Positions 8,019 to 15,794 of a DNA stretch of 64,000 nucleotides are shown piece by piece. Source of the stretch: Chlorobium sp. (GTDB taxonomy: Bacteria > Bacteroidota > Chlorobiia > Chlorobiales > Chlorobiaceae); contig SZXX01000015.1 of the NCBI GenBank assembly GCA_005843825.1, forward strand, positions 1 to 64,000, read 5' to 3'. Every line of letters starts with the position of its first letter. Position 1 is the stretch's first letter. Under the pieces are notes generated by a model. It was not told the DNA's origin. It made no database searches and saw only the letters and a program-made list of their open reading frames with translations. The translations under genes were made by a program, and so were the position numbers.

Positions 8019-9746
8019 TTAAATCAGAGTCTCTGCCGCCTCATGCTGTAGTGACCACATCCGTTTGTAGAGTCCGTCTTTTTCCATCAGCTCATGGTGC
8101 CGGCCCTCTTCTGTTATGGCTCCTTTGTCGAGTACAAGGATGTTGTCATATTGCTCCATTGCTTTCAACCGGTGTGTGATGGTAATGAGGGTTTTGCCGG
8201 TGGAAATGGTCTTAAGGGTTTCAGTCACCTCTTTTTCAGTCACTCCGTCAAGGTTTGCCGTCGCTTCATCAAGTATTATTATTGGAGCGTTTTGCAGCAG
8301 AATACGCGCAATGGCTATTCTCTGCCTCTCACCTCCACTGAGTTTCATGCCGTGCTGGCCGGTCCAGTCATCAAGTTTTGAGGTAAAGTGGGCAAGGCCG
8401 GCCGCAGAAAGCGCTTTTTTAAGTTCATCATCCGACCCGCCAGGTTTAGCAAGTATCAGGTTTTCCCGGATTGTCTCTGCGAAAAGGTATGTTCGCTGCG
8501 AGACCAGTGAAATATTGCGCCGCAGCTCTTCCGGGTCAAAAAGGTTGATGTTGTGACCACCGAGCGTAATCTGCCCCTTTGAACAGTTCCAGAACCGCAT
8601 AAAGAGGGCTGTTAACGTTGATTTCCCGGCCCCGCTCGGTCCGACAAGGGCAACGTGTTGGCCGGTATGTATGGAAAAAGATATGCTGTCAAGTGTTTTC
8701 GAGCTGCTTTCAGGATACCTGAAACTGAGATTTTCTACGCTGATGTCATGGTTCGACGGCAAAGGCAGTGGGGTGGCAGGTGCCACTGTTTCCGGCTTTG
8801 CATCAAGTATTTCAAAAAGGCGTTCCCCGGCATGTTTGTCTGCTTCGAGGTGCTTGACGGTGGCTGGCAGAGGAAGAAATGGTTCAAACGATGCTATGAC
8901 GGCCAGCGTTATGACTGCCAGTGAAATTCCGTTTACACCTCCGGTTGAAACGGTTGGTATAAGTGCCCATAAAATGGATATGACAGCCGCGTTCATAAGA
9001 AGCCCGGTGAGTGAATCGTGCATCCCCTCTATCAATGCATTTTTTCTCTGGAGCTCAAGTTTGCTTTTTTCTGCAGAGCGCATATGTTCGAGGTGTTCCG
9101 GAAGTTTTCCGTACACCTGGAGTTCACCGATTCCCTGAAAGAGATCGAGGGCAAGAACCTGCTGAACGGTTTTATGCTTCATGATTCCTACCTGTATCCC
9201 CCGGCTTAACAGAGTGCTGAAGAGAGGTACTCCAATGCCTGCAAGAATATGGAAAAGGAGGATGAGGAGTGCAGCCTCTATTGAGTATACTCCGAGCAGA
9301 AACCACATCAAAGCACTCACAAGTATAGCTGTCAGTGGCGGTGCGAGAACTCTTGTGTATATATTTTCAAGGCTTTGAATGTCATCGACAATACGCTGCA
9401 GCAGGTCACCGCTTTTGAAGTGCATGAGGCGTGCTGGTGCAAGTGGTTCGATGGCGTCATAAAACCATAAGCGCAGTTTTGTCAGAATCTTGAAAGTGAT
9501 GTTATGGGATATCAGACGTTCAATATACCGTAACACTCCCCGGGCCAGGCCGAAAACTCTTACGCCCGCAATGCTGAGCTCCAGGGCTGCCATAGGCGGC
9601 TGTGAAGCCGCTTTCGCGATGATATAGGCTGAAGTCATCAGAAGTCCAATACCGCTTCCTGTTGTGGCAAATCCGATGATAGCCGCAAGCGCCATCCACC
9701 AGAAATATGGCTTGACGAGTGACGTTAATCTGAAAAATATTCTCAT
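8019..9746 (-). CDS. cydC: CydC, thiol reductant ABC exporter subunit
   Basis: A fused membrane/ATPase half-transporter of about 575 residues. The membrane domain starts MRIFFRLTSLVKPYFWWM with six expected spans. The nucleotide-binding domain has Walker A GPSGAGKST, signature LSGGERQR and Walker B IIILDEATANLD. CydDC exports cysteine and glutathione to the periplasm and is needed for cytochrome bd and c-type cytochrome assembly. The ORF track starts at 9824, but the ATG at 9746 overlaps the cydD stop as ATGA and begins the conserved sequence, so it is preferred. Being downstream of cydD is the usual order. Confidence 0.9.
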   Translation of the reverse strand: MRIFFRLTSLVKPYFWWMALAAIIGFATTGSGIGLLMTSAYIIAKAASQPPMAALELSIAGVRVFGLARGVLRYIERLISHNITFKILTKLRLWFYDAIEPLAPARLMHFKSGDLLQRIVDDIQSLENIYTRVLAPPLTAILVSALMWFLLGVYSIEAALLILLFHILAGIGVPLFSTLLSRGIQVGIMKHKTVQQVLALDLFQGIGELQVYGKLPEHLEHMRSAEKSKLELQRKNALIEGMHDSLTGLLMNAAVISILWALIPTVSTGGVNGISLAVITLAVIASFEPFLPLPATVKHLEADKHAGERLFEILDAKPETVAPATPLPLPSNHDISVENLSFRYPESSSKTLDSISFSIHTGQHVALVGPSGAGKSTLTALFMRFWNCSKGQITLGGHNINLFDPEELRRNISLVSQRTYLFAETIRENLILAKPGGSDDELKKALSAAGLAHFTSKLDDWTGQHGMKLSGGERQRIAIARILLQNAPIIILDEATANLDGVTEKEVTETLKTISTGKTLITITHRLKAMEQYDNILVLDKGAITEEGRHHELMEKDGLYKRMWSLQHEAAETLI

Positions 9747-11482
9747 AGCTCGCTCTCCTGTTGCAGCAGTAAGGCATCGTGATAGAAGCCCCCTGCAGTG
9801 AAGAGTTCGTCGTGTGTCCCACATTGGGTGATTTTCCCCTGACTGAAAACCACTATCTGGTCTGCTGACCTTATTGTTTCAAGCCGGTGAGCAATAATGA
9901 CGGTCGTTCTTCCTTTCATCAGTTCTTCCATGGAGTTTCGAAGCGCAGCTTCCAGCTCAGGGTCGGTATGAGATGTAGGCTCATCGAGTATCAGAAGCGG
10001 AGCGTTTTTAAGAAATGCCCTGGCTAGAGCTACCCTTTGCGCTTCTCCACCGCTTAATCTCGACCCTTGTTCACCTATCATTGTGTCCAGTCCGTCTGGA
10101 AGCGAATTGACAAACGAAGCAAGTCCGGTTTTTCTAAGTGCGGCATTCATTTCCACTTCCGATGCATCCGGACGTGCCAGAAGAATATTTTCTTTCAGGC
10201 TGGCGTTGAAAAGGTAAGGGTGCTGTGGAACCCACGATATCTGGCGGTGCCACTGCTCAAGAGGAATAGCATGAATTGGAGAGTTGTTAATTGTAATGCT
10301 GCCCGCGCCTGGTTCCAGAAAGCGCAAAAGCAGGTTGATCATTGTGCTTTTTCCAGAACCGCTTGGTCCTATTATTGCTGTGGTCTTGCTTTCGGGGATG
10401 ATAAAGTTAATGCCATCAATCGCTGGCAGGCTTGCATCTGGATAAGTGAAGGAGAGATTGCTGCAGAGAATAGGGTACGTTCCGGCACTATCCTGCTTAA
10501 TCAATCCGTTTTTATTCTCGCCTGCCCCGGAGCTCTGGTCCAGGATGGCAAAAATCTCTTTTGAAGCACTGACGCCTTCCATGCCGGCATGAAATTTTGT
10601 GCCGAGCTGACGCAAAGGAAGATAAAAGTCCGGTGTAAGCACTAACACGAAGAGGGCATGTTGAAAGGTTAGCTTGCCATCCATCATACGTAGTCCAATG
10701 CCGACAGCAACGATCGCAATCCCGATAGTCCCCACAAGTTCAAGGGTGAGCGAAGAGAGAAAGGCGATTTTCAGCACCCTCATGGTTGCGTGACGGAATG
10801 TCTCCCCTGTTTTTTCAATAGAATCTCGCTGTGATCTGCTTTGTGCAAAGAGTTTCAGAGTCGGGAGTCCCTGCAGCACATCAAGGAAGTAACCGCTCAT
10901 TCTGCTCATGGTTTTCCACTGTTTTTCAGTCATTGCACTTGCCGATTTTCCGATCACTATCATGAAAAAAGGAATAAGTGGCGCTGAGGCAAGCAGAATC
11001 CAGCCGGAAATCGGATCAGCGGGAAAGATGGTACAGACAATCAGGAGAGGGGTAAAAAGCGCAAAAAAGATCTGGGGGATATACTGGCTGTAATATGCAT
11101 CGAGGGCTTCAACGCCCTTAAGCAGTGTTGTGCTGAGACGTCCGCTTTGCACCGAACGGGTGTAGATCGGTCCGAGAGCACCTACCCTCTCTATAAGTCT
11201 GCTGAATATTTTTTCACGGATTGCAATTGTTCCCCGGTTGGCTTCACTGTGGGATGCCCAGTTGAAAGCCATGCGAAGCAGGCTGAAAAACGCAAAAAAG
11301 CTAAGCAGAGGCAGAAGCTTTTCTAACCCGATTTTTTGTATGAAAGCGCTGTCAATGATTTTGCTGAGATAAAAGGCCTGAGCGATCAGCAACCCCGATG
11401 CAATAACTCCTGAAATCAGAGATATAATAAATGGCGCTCGCTCTTCTTTAAGAAGTTGAAAAAGGCGCCTGTCGATGTTCAT
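9743..11482 (-). CDS. cydD: CydD, thiol reductant ABC exporter subunit
   Basis: A 579-residue half-transporter starting MNIDRRLFQLLKEER. It has a membrane domain followed by an ABC ATPase with Walker A GPSGSGKST, signature LSGGEAQR and Walker B LLILDEPTSHTD. It pairs with the downstream cydC, with which it overlaps by 4 bases, to form the heterodimeric CydDC exporter of reductants such as cysteine and glutathione. The length and the D-then-C order fit the family. No cydAB genes for bd oxidase occur in the window; the cbb3 oxidase operon lies about 4 kb away across an accessory island and also needs periplasmic thiol balance for haem c attachment. Confidence 0.9.
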   Translation of the reverse strand: MNIDRRLFQLLKEERAPFIISLISGVIASGLLIAQAFYLSKIIDSAFIQKIGLEKLLPLLSFFAFFSLLRMAFNWASHSEANRGTIAIREKIFSRLIERVGALGPIYTRSVQSGRLSTTLLKGVEALDAYYSQYIPQIFFALFTPLLIVCTIFPADPISGWILLASAPLIPFFMIVIGKSASAMTEKQWKTMSRMSGYFLDVLQGLPTLKLFAQSRSQRDSIEKTGETFRHATMRVLKIAFLSSLTLELVGTIGIAIVAVGIGLRMMDGKLTFQHALFVLVLTPDFYLPLRQLGTKFHAGMEGVSASKEIFAILDQSSGAGENKNGLIKQDSAGTYPILCSNLSFTYPDASLPAIDGINFIIPESKTTAIIGPSGSGKSTMINLLLRFLEPGAGSITINNSPIHAIPLEQWHRQISWVPQHPYLFNASLKENILLARPDASEVEMNAALRKTGLASFVNSLPDGLDTMIGEQGSRLSGGEAQRVALARAFLKNAPLLILDEPTSHTDPELEAALRNSMEELMKGRTTVIIAHRLETIRSADQIVVFSQGKITQCGTHDELFTAGGFYHDALLLQQESEL

Positions 11483-11785
11483 AGTTCATGTATGGTTACT
11501 TCCGTATTCAATCCGCTCACTCCGGAATAAAGAATAAAACCGGGAGCAGAGGCAGCTGCAAATGTATTGCGTAAGACGCAGGTGTTACAGTTTCAGTAAA
11601 AATAACACGGTTGTCTTAAAATAGGTTTAAAATAGTCCGTTTAATTGTCAAACCAAAATAGTAAACGTTCTGCATGGAATGAACTGAAAGGTTTGAGCTG
11701 TGGCTCAATGTAAAAAAAAGACCAGACTTTGTTGAGCCGGTCATTTTTTATTGTCTTGCTGGACTTGCTTAGTGGGAGAAATGAG
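11483..11785. other. Intergenic region upstream of cydD
   Basis: About 300 bases with no supported gene. It should carry the cydDC promoter near its left side and holds a hairpin with flanking A and T runs at 11712-11748, listed separately. Nothing else could be assigned. Confidence 0.6.
11712..11748 (-). terminator. Possible bidirectional terminator behind the DUF2442-like gene
   Basis: A GACC...GGTC inverted repeat (11720-11742), extended by a G-C and a G-U pair, is preceded by eight A and followed by six T, so either strand has a U-tract after the stem. It lies just past the stop of the leftward gene at 11786. The stem is short (about six pairs), so strength is uncertain. Confidence 0.45.
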
Positions 11786-12055
11786 TTAAGGTTTCGCATT
11801 GCTTACAAGCGGAAAAGCATCAGGGTTACGAATTGATTCAATTGAAAGATCAATATCTAATAATGGCCAATACAAGTGCTCTGAGTGATGGAGTTCTACA
11901 TTGCAGATTTTGCTAACGGTAGCCTCTTTGAACCAGGGAAACTCAGTGTATTGTAAAAATAGCTCTTCTTCTCCAATCAAAAGCCAAAAGCCATAAGTGG
12001 AAATATTTGTTACTTCAACAAGGGAAGTGCTGGATCCATGCGTTGTGTATGTCAT
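11786..12055 (-). CDS. DUF2442-like small protein
   Basis: An 89-residue protein, MTYTTHGSSTSLVEVTNIST, with the pattern GFWLLIGEEELFLQYTEFPWF and YWPLLDIDLSIESIRNPDAFP. This pattern is typical of DUF2442 proteins, which are often found beside DUF4160 partners and are suspected to belong to toxin-antitoxin-like pairs. No DUF4160 partner is visible next to it. It sits at the left end of the restriction-modification island, on the same strand. Biochemical function is unknown, and the family call rests on recognising the sequence pattern. Confidence 0.65.
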   Translation of the reverse strand: MTYTTHGSSTSLVEVTNISTYGFWLLIGEEELFLQYTEFPWFKEATVSKICNVELHHSEHLYWPLLDIDLSIESIRNPDAFPLVSNAKP

Positions 12056-12163
12056 TGTTGTGCTCAGTAATGAGGTAAAGCGCTTCAGTTATTTCATACT
12101 GAGAAAGTCCTGTTGTAATCGGAATATAGTTTTAACAATCCTTTGTCGTTATTTGAAAAAAAG

Positions 12164-12889
12164 TCAGGGGTGTTTCCGGAAAATCTCTCTTTCAATAATT
12201 TCTTTCACGAATGCTGGTATTTCTTTTTCGAGTGAGTGAGCCTTTGTCTTTAGTTGTTCATAAATGTCTGTTTCATCGCCTTGCCAGACAAGATCCAGAC
12301 GTCTGATCTGACGCATGGCAATATGAGTGTAACTGTCCGGGTATGCCCAATAGCATGTCAGACAAATTTTCCTGTCTTTGATGTTGTTCCAATTCTCACA
12401 ATGCTCACAAGACCACGATTTCGCCCGGTTTGCAGAGCCGGAAAGCAACATGAAGTCTTCAGAGTTATATTCAGTGCCGTCACCACCGACTTCATAAGGA
12501 ACGCGATGATCAATTTGCAATTCTCGCTCGTCTATTTCTTCAAGATAAATGAAGCACTTGCAACCATATCTTTCAGTCAGGGCATCCTTGATTTTCTTTG
12601 ATAGTCCTGTTCTGCCTGATAGTTTTGTAAATTGTTTGCTCTGTACATCGCCGAAACGATATGCTGCTATTTTACGTCCATCAGAACCGTTAACTCGGAA
12701 TGTTGTGATAGAAATGCCATGTTCACGAACATCTCGTACTGCCCTTGGCGGATGGTTGTACCCGTAAGTTACTTTCAACTCCTCTGTTGTTATAAAGCCA
12801 TGTTTAAGAATATGGTCAATAACGGTTTTGGGTCGTTTGGCAGTAATGGAGTGGCATAGATCAATAAAATCTTTTGGGAGTTCAGGCAT
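12164..12889 (-). CDS. HNH-type restriction endonuclease (putative)
   Basis: The ORF track extends to 13126, but its first 79 codons re-read the methyltransferase gene. The ATG at 12889 (MPELPKDFIDLCHS) overlaps the methyltransferase stop by 8 bases and gives 241 residues. The N-terminal part resembles a winged-helix DNA-recognition domain (VIDHILKHGFITTEELKVTY). The nuclease part is an HNH fold: LQIDHRVPYEVGGDG, then DFMLLSGSANRAKSW. Two CxxC pairs (CEHCENW, CLTCYW) probably bind structural zinc. Coupling to a DNA methyltransferase makes a type II restriction enzyme the most likely role. Target sequence unknown. Confidence 0.75.
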   Translation of the reverse strand: MPELPKDFIDLCHSITAKRPKTVIDHILKHGFITTEELKVTYGYNHPPRAVRDVREHGISITTFRVNGSDGRKIAAYRFGDVQSKQFTKLSGRTGLSKKIKDALTERYGCKCFIYLEEIDERELQIDHRVPYEVGGDGTEYNSEDFMLLSGSANRAKSWSCEHCENWNNIKDRKICLTCYWAYPDSYTHIAMRQIRRLDLVWQGDETDIYEQLKTKAHSLEKEIPAFVKEIIEREIFRKHP

Positions 12890-13808
12890 ATTCGGTATGA
12901 GGTTCGAGCAAGGAGTACTGCTGCATTTTTGGTTGATGGTAATCAGCCGGTATGTGGTTGAGCTTTGCTGATAATGAGGGCGAAAGGTATAAGGATTCGT
13001 AGGTAACCTCATCGCGCCCCAGTAACGTTGCCTGACTCGAACGCCCTGCATCCAGTTCAACACGAGTGAGTTCAAGGGATTCAGGAAGTAACATTCCAAA
13101 GGTTTTTTCTCCTCTGCGACCGTCATAGCTAACGATATATGAAATTTCCCGTCTATTTAGCTCGGCAAGGGCAATGACAAATTCCTCATGGTCAATGCCG
13201 GAAAAATAACGGGAATCTCGATCTCCGCATACTCCCTGATAGGGCGGGTCCATATAAACAAGATCGTTTTTTTTAGCTTTTACCAATACCTCTCTGAAAT
13301 CCACTGAGGAGAATTCTGTTTTGTTGTTAAGTAAAGTAGAAACACCGTAAATATTTGAGCGCATTGTTTGAGGTAGGGTTCCATGACGTCTCTTGTCAGG
13401 ACTTTGATTGAACATCCCGTCAGCATTGTATCGAACCGAACCTTTGACGCATCTTGCCAATACATAAAGGAAAAGACGCGGGTCTTGTGTACTGTTGAAC
13501 TCTGCACGAGTTCTGTAGTAATGCTCTATGGAGTCACCATGCTGCTCATTCCATAACTTCTCATAAAATGATGCAGTATCAATGGGAAACTGAACAATTA
13601 AGCGCAATAACTCGGCTAAAGGTCTGTTTAGATCATTGATGAGATAGGTTTTTGCCATCTGACGAGCTGCAGCGGCAATAGTGATTGCGGCAGAGCCTGC
13701 AAATGGCTCAATCAAGCAGTCAACATTTTTGGGGATATAGCGCAAAATAACGTGAGCCAAGTTGCGCTTGCTCCCTTGATATTGAATTGGATGAGGAATG
13801 CTTGCCAT
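12882..13808 (-). CDS. D12-class DNA adenine-N6 methyltransferase
   Basis: A 308-residue methyltransferase. The N-terminal IQYQGSKRNL and EPFAGSAAITI form the S-adenosylmethionine site (motif I, around residues 9-43). The catalytic motif IV is MDPPYQGVC, around residues 186-194. The order is that of alpha-class (D12, Dam-like) N6-adenine methyltransferases. A C-terminal part (SYDGRRGEKTFGMLLPE, AGRSSQATLLGR) completes it. It overlaps the HNH nuclease gene by 8 bases, so the two form a restriction-modification operon with the protective enzyme translated first. D12 enzymes recognise several sites (GATC, GGATG and others), so specificity cannot be stated. Confidence 0.87.
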   Translation of the reverse strand: MASIPHPIQYQGSKRNLAHVILRYIPKNVDCLIEPFAGSAAITIAAAARQMAKTYLINDLNRPLAELLRLIVQFPIDTASFYEKLWNEQHGDSIEHYYRTRAEFNSTQDPRLFLYVLARCVKGSVRYNADGMFNQSPDKRRHGTLPQTMRSNIYGVSTLLNNKTEFSSVDFREVLVKAKKNDLVYMDPPYQGVCGDRDSRYFSGIDHEEFVIALAELNRREISYIVSYDGRRGEKTFGMLLPESLELTRVELDAGRSSQATLLGRDEVTYESLYLSPSLSAKLNHIPADYHQPKMQQYSLLEPHTEYA

Positions 13809-13854
13809 TATCGTTTTTGTAAATATTCGTGAGTGTCGATGGTCTTAAGAATGT

Positions 13855-13923
13855 TTAGTGTTCTATAATCAGGTGAATGGTATCCAAATGTCCCTCAGCT
13901 GTAGCTGTCCAGTGGACTTTCAT
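13855..13923 (-). pseudogene. Truncated RelE/ParE-type toxin (22 codons left)
   Basis: Directly after the antitoxin gene, with an ATGA overlap at 13920-13923, the minus strand encodes MKVHWTATAEGHLDTIHLII followed by two residues and TAA. This is the usual first helix of RelE/ParE toxins, which normally continue to about 95-100 residues. No remainder could be found before the methyltransferase start at 13808, nor just beyond the HNH gene at 12056-12163. I read it as a toxin gene cut off by acquisition of the restriction-modification genes or by deletion. It is too short for the ORF track. Confidence 0.6.
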
Positions 13924-14135
13924 TCCGATAAACCGTATTTAGCGCGGACTTCCTGCACATCCTTGGTTCGGCCTGCATTGCTGTCCGCCAAGCCACGTTC
14001 AATTGCTTCGCGGATGTATATCTCACGCATCAGGTTCTCCCATGTAGCTTGCTGATGCATAAGGTCAATGAGGTTATGCACTTTGTCCCTTTTTATTACT
14101 TTTGACTTCACGCAACAGATCTTTGTTTTCTTCAA
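13920..14135 (-). CDS. Antitoxin-like protein of a broken toxin-antitoxin pair
   Basis: Up to 71 residues. The core ATWENLMREIYIREAIERGL followed by ADSNAGRTKDVQEVRAKYGL matches the pattern of short antitoxins that accompany RelE/ParE toxins (TWE-IMYEIYVRxKIExGLADxxAGR). The true start may be the GTG at 14111 or a later ATG, since the first residues (MKKTKICC) are not family-like. The stop overlaps the start of a toxin fragment by ATGA, the classic arrangement. With the toxin truncated, the gene may be a relic, or it may still neutralise a related toxin elsewhere. Confidence 0.65.
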   Translation of the reverse strand: MKKTKICCVKSKVIKRDKVHNLIDLMHQQATWENLMREIYIREAIERGLADSNAGRTKDVQEVRAKYGLSE

Positions 14136-14198
14136 ACTATTCGGTCCAAGTTTCTATGCATACCTCTAAGTCTGACTCATTAGTCGTGTGGTAGTCGT

Positions 14199-14945
14199 TT
14201 AGGATGCTTGTCTCAGCGAAGGACATAACTGATCTGCGATTCGCTCCCATAGACTGATATAACCTTCGAAAATATCACCCCAATGGTGTTCATCCGATTG
14301 AAGGTGTTTGAGTCGAGAGTTTGATTCGATAGACGATACCATTAATTTTCCTGGTGAAAATCCAGTAGGAAGTGGGGCATTCTTTGGGAAATTCAGCAAA
14401 CGATTAACAGCAGACTTGAATTGCAGCTTTGCTGCGTCTGAGTTGTGAGCAACCCTGTTTCTTAAGACAATAGCAAGATCAAGATATTCAACGTCCAGTG
14501 GTGAAATTAATTGGAAAACATTCCCTTTTCCGAAGTGAATTTCAGACGTTGCTTGAACCCAGTGAAAGTTACCCCATCGCATCCTCCTCTCTGCATCACG
14601 CTTGTTTCTTTCTCCGGCAGCGAGCAGAAGAGCGTGAGTCTTGTTTTGCGCTTTGCCATAGCGTAGTTTTGGTAGGTATCCGCTTTCGGTTGGATAGCCG
14701 CTTAAGTATCCAAGGTAAATATTAGATATGAAATCCTCCCATGCTGATACAGCAGATAGGAATGCGAGGCCTACCACCTTTGCTGCTACGTTGGGTTGAT
14801 AAGATGTATTCTCAAATGAGTTATAGTCATAAATGCTCATCTCACGAGCAGGGTAATAGATCCGGCTCGCAGTTGTCAGCGAAGAGATGAAGTCGGCTTT
14901 GGTTCGGATCTGAGTGCTTGTCCCTCGGATCATATGATGATACAA
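14199..14945 (-). CDS. HEPN-like protein of unknown function
   Basis: A 248-residue soluble protein without a recognised full-length family. Near residues 160-168 it has IVLRNRVAHNS, an RNxxxH motif of the kind that forms the RNase active site in HEPN domains (compare RiboL-PSP-HEPN and MAE_28990-type proteins). The surrounding stretches (KVVGLAFLSAVSAWEDFISN) are helical, as expected. It stands alone, 63 bases upstream of the broken toxin-antitoxin pair on the same strand, in the restriction-modification island. That fits a defence-related RNase, but this is inference from motif and context. It could also be a non-defence HEPN protein. Confidence 0.55.
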   Translation of the reverse strand: MYHHMIRGTSTQIRTKADFISSLTTASRIYYPAREMSIYDYNSFENTSYQPNVAAKVVGLAFLSAVSAWEDFISNIYLGYLSGYPTESGYLPKLRYGKAQNKTHALLLAAGERNKRDAERRMRWGNFHWVQATSEIHFGKGNVFQLISPLDVEYLDLAIVLRNRVAHNSDAAKLQFKSAVNRLLNFPKNAPLPTGFSPGKLMVSSIESNSRLKHLQSDEHHWGDIFEGYISLWERIADQLCPSLRQAS

Positions 14946-15119
14946 TTAATATTTGAATCTCTATGGATGTATTCTCCTAAGCTTTGCTTCGTGACAGAAT
15001 CGATGAAAAATGTATTCATGCCACATAGCTCTGCTAAGGGGTAGTTGATTATCCATAAAATACGCAAAATTCCAACACCTTAAAATTAACAAACCCTTCA
15101 AGCGGTTATGCCACTTTTC

Positions 15120-15794
15120 TCACCACCCCTTCACCATAAACCACACCCCCGTCGCGATCATAATAATACTTGCTATTCGGTAAAATCGTTTCCTCATTTT
15201 GTTGCTGATAGTATTCACTACCTTTCCCACAAGAATGAGCGCAGGGGAAGTTCCTATGCCGAAGAGCATCATCATTATGGCGCCTTGAATCATTCCGGCA
15301 AAGGGATACTTGCTCTCCATGCCACCCCTTGCGGCGGCAAGCAGGGCTGTAAAGGTAAGGCCACAAGGAAGAAAACCGAGAACGACTCCCATAGGGTAAT
15401 AGGAACCAATGGATCGAGGTACCTTGAAGAGCGCCATAATCTTTTGCATGACTGAGCTGCCGGGGTTGCAGCTATTTTTTTGAGGGAGAGGCAACCACTC
15501 TGCTGTAGAAAGTCCCATGAGGATTATTGAGAGTCCCGCTATGATCATAATGGCATGCTGGAGTTGCTCGATAGAGGCTGTAAGGACAAGAAATGATCCC
15601 GAGAGTCCTGCTGCTCCACCCAGGATTGTATATGTGGTTACTCGTCCCAGATTGTAAAGCAGGTGGTGAAGTAATCCTTTTCTCGTTTCACCAAAGGTGA
15701 GTGTTGCAACAACCGGGCCGCACATGCCGATGCAGTGGCCGAAACCCCCGGCTAATCCAGCGAGGAGCATGGCGAGAAAGGGTGCGCTGTTCAT
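15120..15794 (-). CDS. Sulfite exporter TauE/SafE-type membrane protein of the cbb3 cluster
   Basis: A 224-residue membrane protein beginning MNSAPFLAMLLAGLAGGFGH, with the Cys-containing motif GHCIGMCGPVV and about six spans. This TauE/SafE or DsbD-like family is regularly the last gene of cbb3 oxidase assembly clusters. It is thought to help copper or thiol delivery during oxidase maturation, though the mechanism is not settled. Its start overlaps the ccoS stop as ATGA, so translation is coupled. The two Cys in HCIGMCG are candidate metal or redox residues. Confidence 0.85.
   Translation of the reverse strand: MNSAPFLAMLLAGLAGGFGHCIGMCGPVVATLTFGETRKGLLHHLLYNLGRVTTYTILGGAAGLSGSFLVLTASIEQLQHAIMIIAGLSIILMGLSTAEWLPLPQKNSCNPGSSVMQKIMALFKVPRSIGSYYPMGVVLGFLPCGLTFTALLAAARGGMESKYPFAGMIQGAIMMMLFGIGTSPALILVGKVVNTISNKMRKRFYRIASIIMIATGVWFMVKGW

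Follow-up and report, generated by a model that had tools for sequence, protein, structure and literature searches.

A probable toxin–antitoxin relic beside a type II restriction-modification operon in Chlorobium

What is left of a toxin–antitoxin (TA) pair when its toxin frame ends after a few codons and a restriction-modification (R-M) operon begins immediately behind it, and does the surviving antitoxin still do anything? This question is raised by a minus-strand locus in the window, by which we mean the whole stretch of 64,000 nucleotides of the Chlorobium contig analysed here. In the direction of transcription, the locus consists of a HEPN-like open reading frame (ORF), an antitoxin frame, a frame of 22 codons, a gap of 46 bases, a D12 methyltransferase gene and an endonuclease gene. 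These features, together with the flanks of the region, are as follows:

14199..14945, minus strand: HEPN-like ORF preceding the antitoxin remnant (PF18735, E=0.01, below cut-off)
13920..14108, minus strand: antitoxin remnant, RelB/ParD-like (alignment with 20 relatives; NF050811 RelB_ParD, E=0.0027, below cut-off); DNA homology from 14106
13855..13923, minus strand: toxin stub ORF of 22 codons, with homology to ParE limited to codons 1-17 (13923-13873)
13809..13872, minus strand: junction DNA, from the end of the toxin homology to the methyltransferase, in which nothing matches the lost remainder of the toxin
12882..13808, minus strand: D12-class (Dam-type) adenine methyltransferase, the M gene (PF02086, E=2e-35; PADLOC MTase_II, E=8e-72)
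12164..12889, minus strand: type II restriction endonuclease, the R gene, with the start MPELPK and overlapping the end of M (PADLOC REase_II, E=1e-56)
15120..15794, minus strand: presumed TauE-like gene, the hotspot flank with ccoS and fixI (synteny in relatives)
9743..11482, minus strand: presumed CydC-like ABC transporter gene, the other hotspot flank (synteny in relatives)

The M and R frames are both open and, with the two PADLOC matches listed, form a type II R-M system. The HEPN-like ORF is present in 2 of the 86 family genomes, its own included, and the other occurrence is a weak match; a PADLOC search with it returned no matches.

A ParE toxin cut after codon 17

An earlier note on this DNA had described the locus as an antitoxin gene and a RelE/ParE toxin overlapping as ATGA, with a methyltransferase start within 50 bases. 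A check of the sequence at 13923-13920 confirmed the overlap: the antitoxin stop TGA (13922-13920) and the toxin start ATG (13923-13921) share their bases in the context ...GGTTTATCGGAATGAAAGTCCACTGG..., and the short toxin frame reads MKVHWTATAEGHLDTIHLIIEH before its stop TAA at 13857-13855. The methyltransferase ATG lies at 13808, 46 bases beyond this frame, within the 50 that had been claimed.

The identification of the pair depends on relatives, since these carry an intact version and the window peptides alone have no Pfam match. A Pfam search with the antitoxin and stub peptides, which are too short or diverged, found nothing. In the profile search that had been proposed as a check, the antitoxin gave only a weak match to NF050811, a curated antitoxin model (E=0.0027; 17.9 bits, where the cut-off is 60). 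The comparison with relatives was decisive. Six closely related Chlorobiaceae copies have an intact ParE of about 94 amino acids, and intact toxins without this R-M cassette adjacent exist in close relatives. The same antitoxin with the same four-base ATGA overlap precedes the intact toxin in G082 (two copies), G059, G064 and G084; the sixth, in G054, lies at a contig start. The intact relative toxin is a clear member of the ParE family (PF05016, E=2.7e-17), whose nearest solved sequences are 6x0a (E=1e-9) and 5ceg (‘plasmid stabilization system’), and the gene order with the ATGA overlap is typical of type II TA modules. The assignment of the pair to a type II module with a ParE toxin is therefore upheld by the intact ParE that follows the same antitoxin in relatives.

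The similarity to a ParE N-terminus on which the earlier reading had been staked is present: residues 1-17 of the stub are 88% identical to an intact ParE relative (E=3e-7 within the window). The claim of a 22-codon toxin fragment holds for these 17 codons, but the last five residues, LIIEH, come from unmatched, unrelated DNA. With 17 homologous residues against a full domain of about 89, the stub falls outside PF05016, and, in contrast to ParE toxins, it is a fragment and no toxin. No 3′ part of the toxin was found across the window. A functional type II TA module has an intact toxin beside its antitoxin, and here the toxin is cut after codon 17; the best explanation is that it can no longer be made in this lineage.

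An antitoxin frame without its conserved start signals

A block of 234 bases (13873-14106) matches relatives at 82-85% DNA identity, with E-values down to 1e-72, and the homology ends sharply on both sides, at the antitoxin start codon (14106) and at toxin codon 17 (13873). Because this block and toxin residues 1-17 match relatives, the ATGA pair is not a chance arrangement. The antitoxin is approximately 65-81% identical to antitoxins paired with intact ParE, is present in 21 of 86 Chlorobiaceae genomes as well as in more distant phyla, and occurs as a single copy in the source genome. Its match to the 79-amino-acid ribbon-helix-helix (RHH)-family antitoxin 6xrw (E=0.007) covers only residues 37-78, and no Pfam domain that could indicate DNA binding was found in it.

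The start region was compared in an alignment with 20 relatives that retain the 5′ end of the antitoxin. Behind a ribosome-binding site the relatives read ATG TCA ACA GTA ATG AAA AAG GAA GAA GCG CAT, and the window reads AAG TCA AAA GTA ATA AAA AGG GAC AAA GTG CAT. Homology begins at 14108/14106, where the relatives' start ATG (M1) is replaced by AAG (14108-14106); a second conserved ATG (M5) has become ATA (14096-14094), and the relatives' ribosome-binding region is absent upstream. The loss of both ATGs and the upstream region is unique to the window, except for one 5′-truncated third copy in G082. As the homology starts at 14108/14106, the TTG-started frame that reaches 14135 does not represent the ancestral gene. 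The frame remains open for about 60 codons to its TGA. A GTG at 14111 or 14081 could act as a start, the latter preceded by an AAGGG-like sequence, and for this reason we describe the frame as inefficiently translated at best rather than untranslated. Judged from its sequence, the antitoxin would have to be translated from a non-ATG codon, and its expression is probably poor or absent.

Selection was estimated with a branch model, using a purpose-written GY-type codon model on 18 sequences and 52 codons. The overall omega of the antitoxin is 0.147. Antitoxins that have lost their toxin (eight tips) have an omega of 0.364 versus 0.078 elsewhere (2dlnL 20.6), and the result is stable after dropping G078 or collapsing weakly supported nodes. 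The toxin-less antitoxins of the group are thus under relaxed constraint. A value of 1.0 is nevertheless rejected for these tips (2dlnL 13.9), so some constraint, or a recent toxin loss, remains; the orphan-tip value is a mixture, since part of each tip may predate the loss of the toxin. For the window antitoxin the tip omega is 0.60, neither different from 1 (2dlnL 0.26) nor significantly above the rest (2dlnL 2.8), in a single-branch test that has little power at 52 codons.

There is no close cognate toxin elsewhere in the genome: it has 11 ParE-family matches, the closest of them only 33% identical. With both conserved starts and the upstream region gone, an omega indistinguishable from neutral and no cognate toxin, these results lend no support to the idea of an orphan antitoxin that still works.

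A hotspot of defence genes and repeated toxin loss

In Chlorobium, the stretch between fixI-ccoS-tauE and cydC to which the locus belongs is a variable hotspot. Taken together, the interval 9743-15794 and the syntenic loci L099-L111 contain, besides other genes, type I and II R-M genes, zeta-type modules and a TIR-domain protein. In the close clade, a DNA methyltransferase gene or fragment, of the N6_N4 type or HsdM, lies within about 20 to 100 bases downstream of each of the six intact ParE copies. In five further copies, which precede hsdM, an in-frame deletion has left only the first 17 and last 8 codons of the toxin; as read from the sequences, the deletion is flanked by ATCCACGG-like repeats in the intact gene. 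These five copies are L101, L104, L106, L109 and L100, each with a type I hsdM gene or fragment downstream. Two copies have a zeta-type pair in place of the ParE pair, and four hsdM copies (G084, G062, G083 and G078) keep only the last few antitoxin codons. The 25-codon stubs ahead of hsdM are about neutral (dN about 0.24, dS about 0.27).

The toxin has therefore been mutilated several times at this hotspot, and the window break, which also falls after codon 17, may reflect coincidence or a fragile site. With or without its toxin, the antitoxin directly precedes methyltransferase genes or fragments in 12 copies (D12, N6_N4 and HsdM); the layout is not peculiar to the arrival of this R-M system and recurs with unrelated methyltransferases. 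In L099 and L100 (G082:C2:95000-130000) there are three tandem antitoxin copies, and a copy of ccoS-tauE stands before each of them, a pattern suggestive of cassettes accumulating by recombination through the flank.

Homologues of the window M gene are found in six relatives behind different upstream DNA and without this antitoxin directly upstream. The upstream DNA in G067, G083 and G084 consists of the first codons of a zeta toxin, P-loop included; G068, G055 and G023 have other DNA at this place. The M-R cassette thus occurs independently of the antitoxin. Both genes have dN/dS of about 0.1 relative to relatives, a sign of purifying selection. At one of the zeta junctions (G067, L093 4821-5810, minus strand), an N-terminal stub with the P-loop MPEWIAAEGPNVSGKTSTTRI is in frame with the D12 methyltransferase, the two making up a single open frame of 329 codons that is immediately preceded by a zeta-type antitoxin gene; similar junctions are seen in L096 and L097.

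The junction DNA of the window shares only its last bases, AACGATA, with the other upstream regions of the same methyltransferase. Outside, its best match is to 34 bp in G028, at the 3′ terminus of a phosphofructokinase-like gene, and is borderline (E=1.5e-4 per genome, or about 0.01 expected over the 86 genomes searched). Three candidate origins were rejected. Alignments of the junction as a decayed internal deletion of the hsdM type (17+8 codons), or as the native upstream region of M, score no better than many shuffles, and had the R-M genes simply been inserted into parE, a C-terminal remnant of the toxin would be expected in the window, where none was found.

Decay of the module and other explanations

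We conclude, with a probability of about 0.85, that a ParE-type (type II) TA module has decayed here, in a hotspot of defence-gene turnover in Chlorobium. Such decay accounts for the truncation of the toxin, the loss of the starts, the absence of a cognate toxin and the relaxed constraint. The ancestral locus would have consisted of antitoxin-parE, often with a DNA methyltransferase gene immediately behind it. One rearrangement would have replaced everything past toxin codon 17, leaving the D12 methyltransferase and endonuclease downstream, and another would have replaced the 5′ end of the antitoxin along with its ribosome-binding region, leaving the HEPN-like gene upstream; we infer both the order of events and recombination as the mechanism. 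The antitoxin, being at best inefficiently translated and having no cognate toxin left in the genome, would now be drifting, and the R-M genes would be what is kept. Reading the site next to the R-M operon as a scar, as the earlier note did, accordingly fits the truncated toxin and the intact toxins of close relatives.

The antitoxin might instead have been co-opted as a leader or regulator of the R-M operon, standing in for a C protein or RptR, with the toxin stub serving translational coupling. Its place directly before methyltransferase genes or fragments in 12 copies of three types would suit such a role, as would the omega below 1 of the orphans, and small regulators upstream of type I R-M systems do exist (RptR, PMC12255303). 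Like the RptR/C proteins, the window antitoxin is a small gene directly upstream of methyltransferase genes, but it has no recognised DNA-binding domain (the match to the RHH-family antitoxin begins only after residue 36), is inconsistently present and is under relaxed selection. What speaks against a conserved regulatory leader is that the antitoxin is missing from several R-M relatives: the cassette does without it directly upstream in six, and four hsdM copies retain only residual codons. Constraint is relaxed following toxin loss, the stubs before hsdM are about neutral and the start signals in the window are gone. Such a leader would explain the repeated neighbourhood and not the losses, and we hold it to be very unlikely. 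We give equally little credence to an anti-addiction role, in which the antitoxin would be kept against ParE toxins elsewhere in the genome or on mobile elements. That role has been proposed for orphan antitoxins (PMC7192599), and the 11 ParE-family matches and the orphan omega below 1 agree with it, but the closest genomic ParE is only 33% identical, the antitoxin had no match among 72,556 plasmids, its start codons are gone and its constraint is relaxed.

An assembly or binning artefact is the least likely explanation. The genome is a draft of 57 contigs, the junctions are read from the assembly alone, and TA and R-M genes are repeated among relatives; yet the locus lies inside a contig of 107.6 kb with collinear flanks, the antitoxin is single copy, and an artefact would have to account for two distinct breakpoints as well as changes in both start codons. 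A bolder proposal, which we also find unlikely if less so than the alternatives above, is that toxin genes are preferred docking points for R-M genes: methyltransferase cassettes would repeatedly have joined behind the first 17-21 toxin codons (ParE in the window, the zeta P-loop stub in G067), and a single step would both disarm the toxin and leave the antitoxin promoter in place to drive the incoming genes.

Orphan antitoxins and degrading TA pairs are a known kind, surveyed in Klebsiella pneumoniae (PMC7192599). As there, the window has an antitoxin without a toxin in a context like that of the intact pairs of relatives; it differs in that the start region of the antitoxin is gone as well, and in that breakpoints and selection are traced here. 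In immunity-suicide coupling in R-M loci (PMC3506569), toxin genes likewise adjoin R-M genes, as they do in this hotspot, but the window toxin is dead, so there can be no coupling through it in the window. The literature on orphan antitoxins with R-M systems, or with hsdM in one operon, yielded general surveys and hypotheses rather than this arrangement.

Most probably the locus is a fossil left by gene turnover, which is an ordinary outcome, though one whose history is documented here in unusual detail. Annotators should not name the small frame an antitoxin gene without evidence of expression. For the biology of TA modules, the locus offers a well resolved case of decay, in which the toxin is cut and the antitoxin loses its constraint and its start signals. 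The parallel losses within one genus (window, hsdM-linked and zeta-linked) let the survival of antitoxins by function versus inertia be measured.
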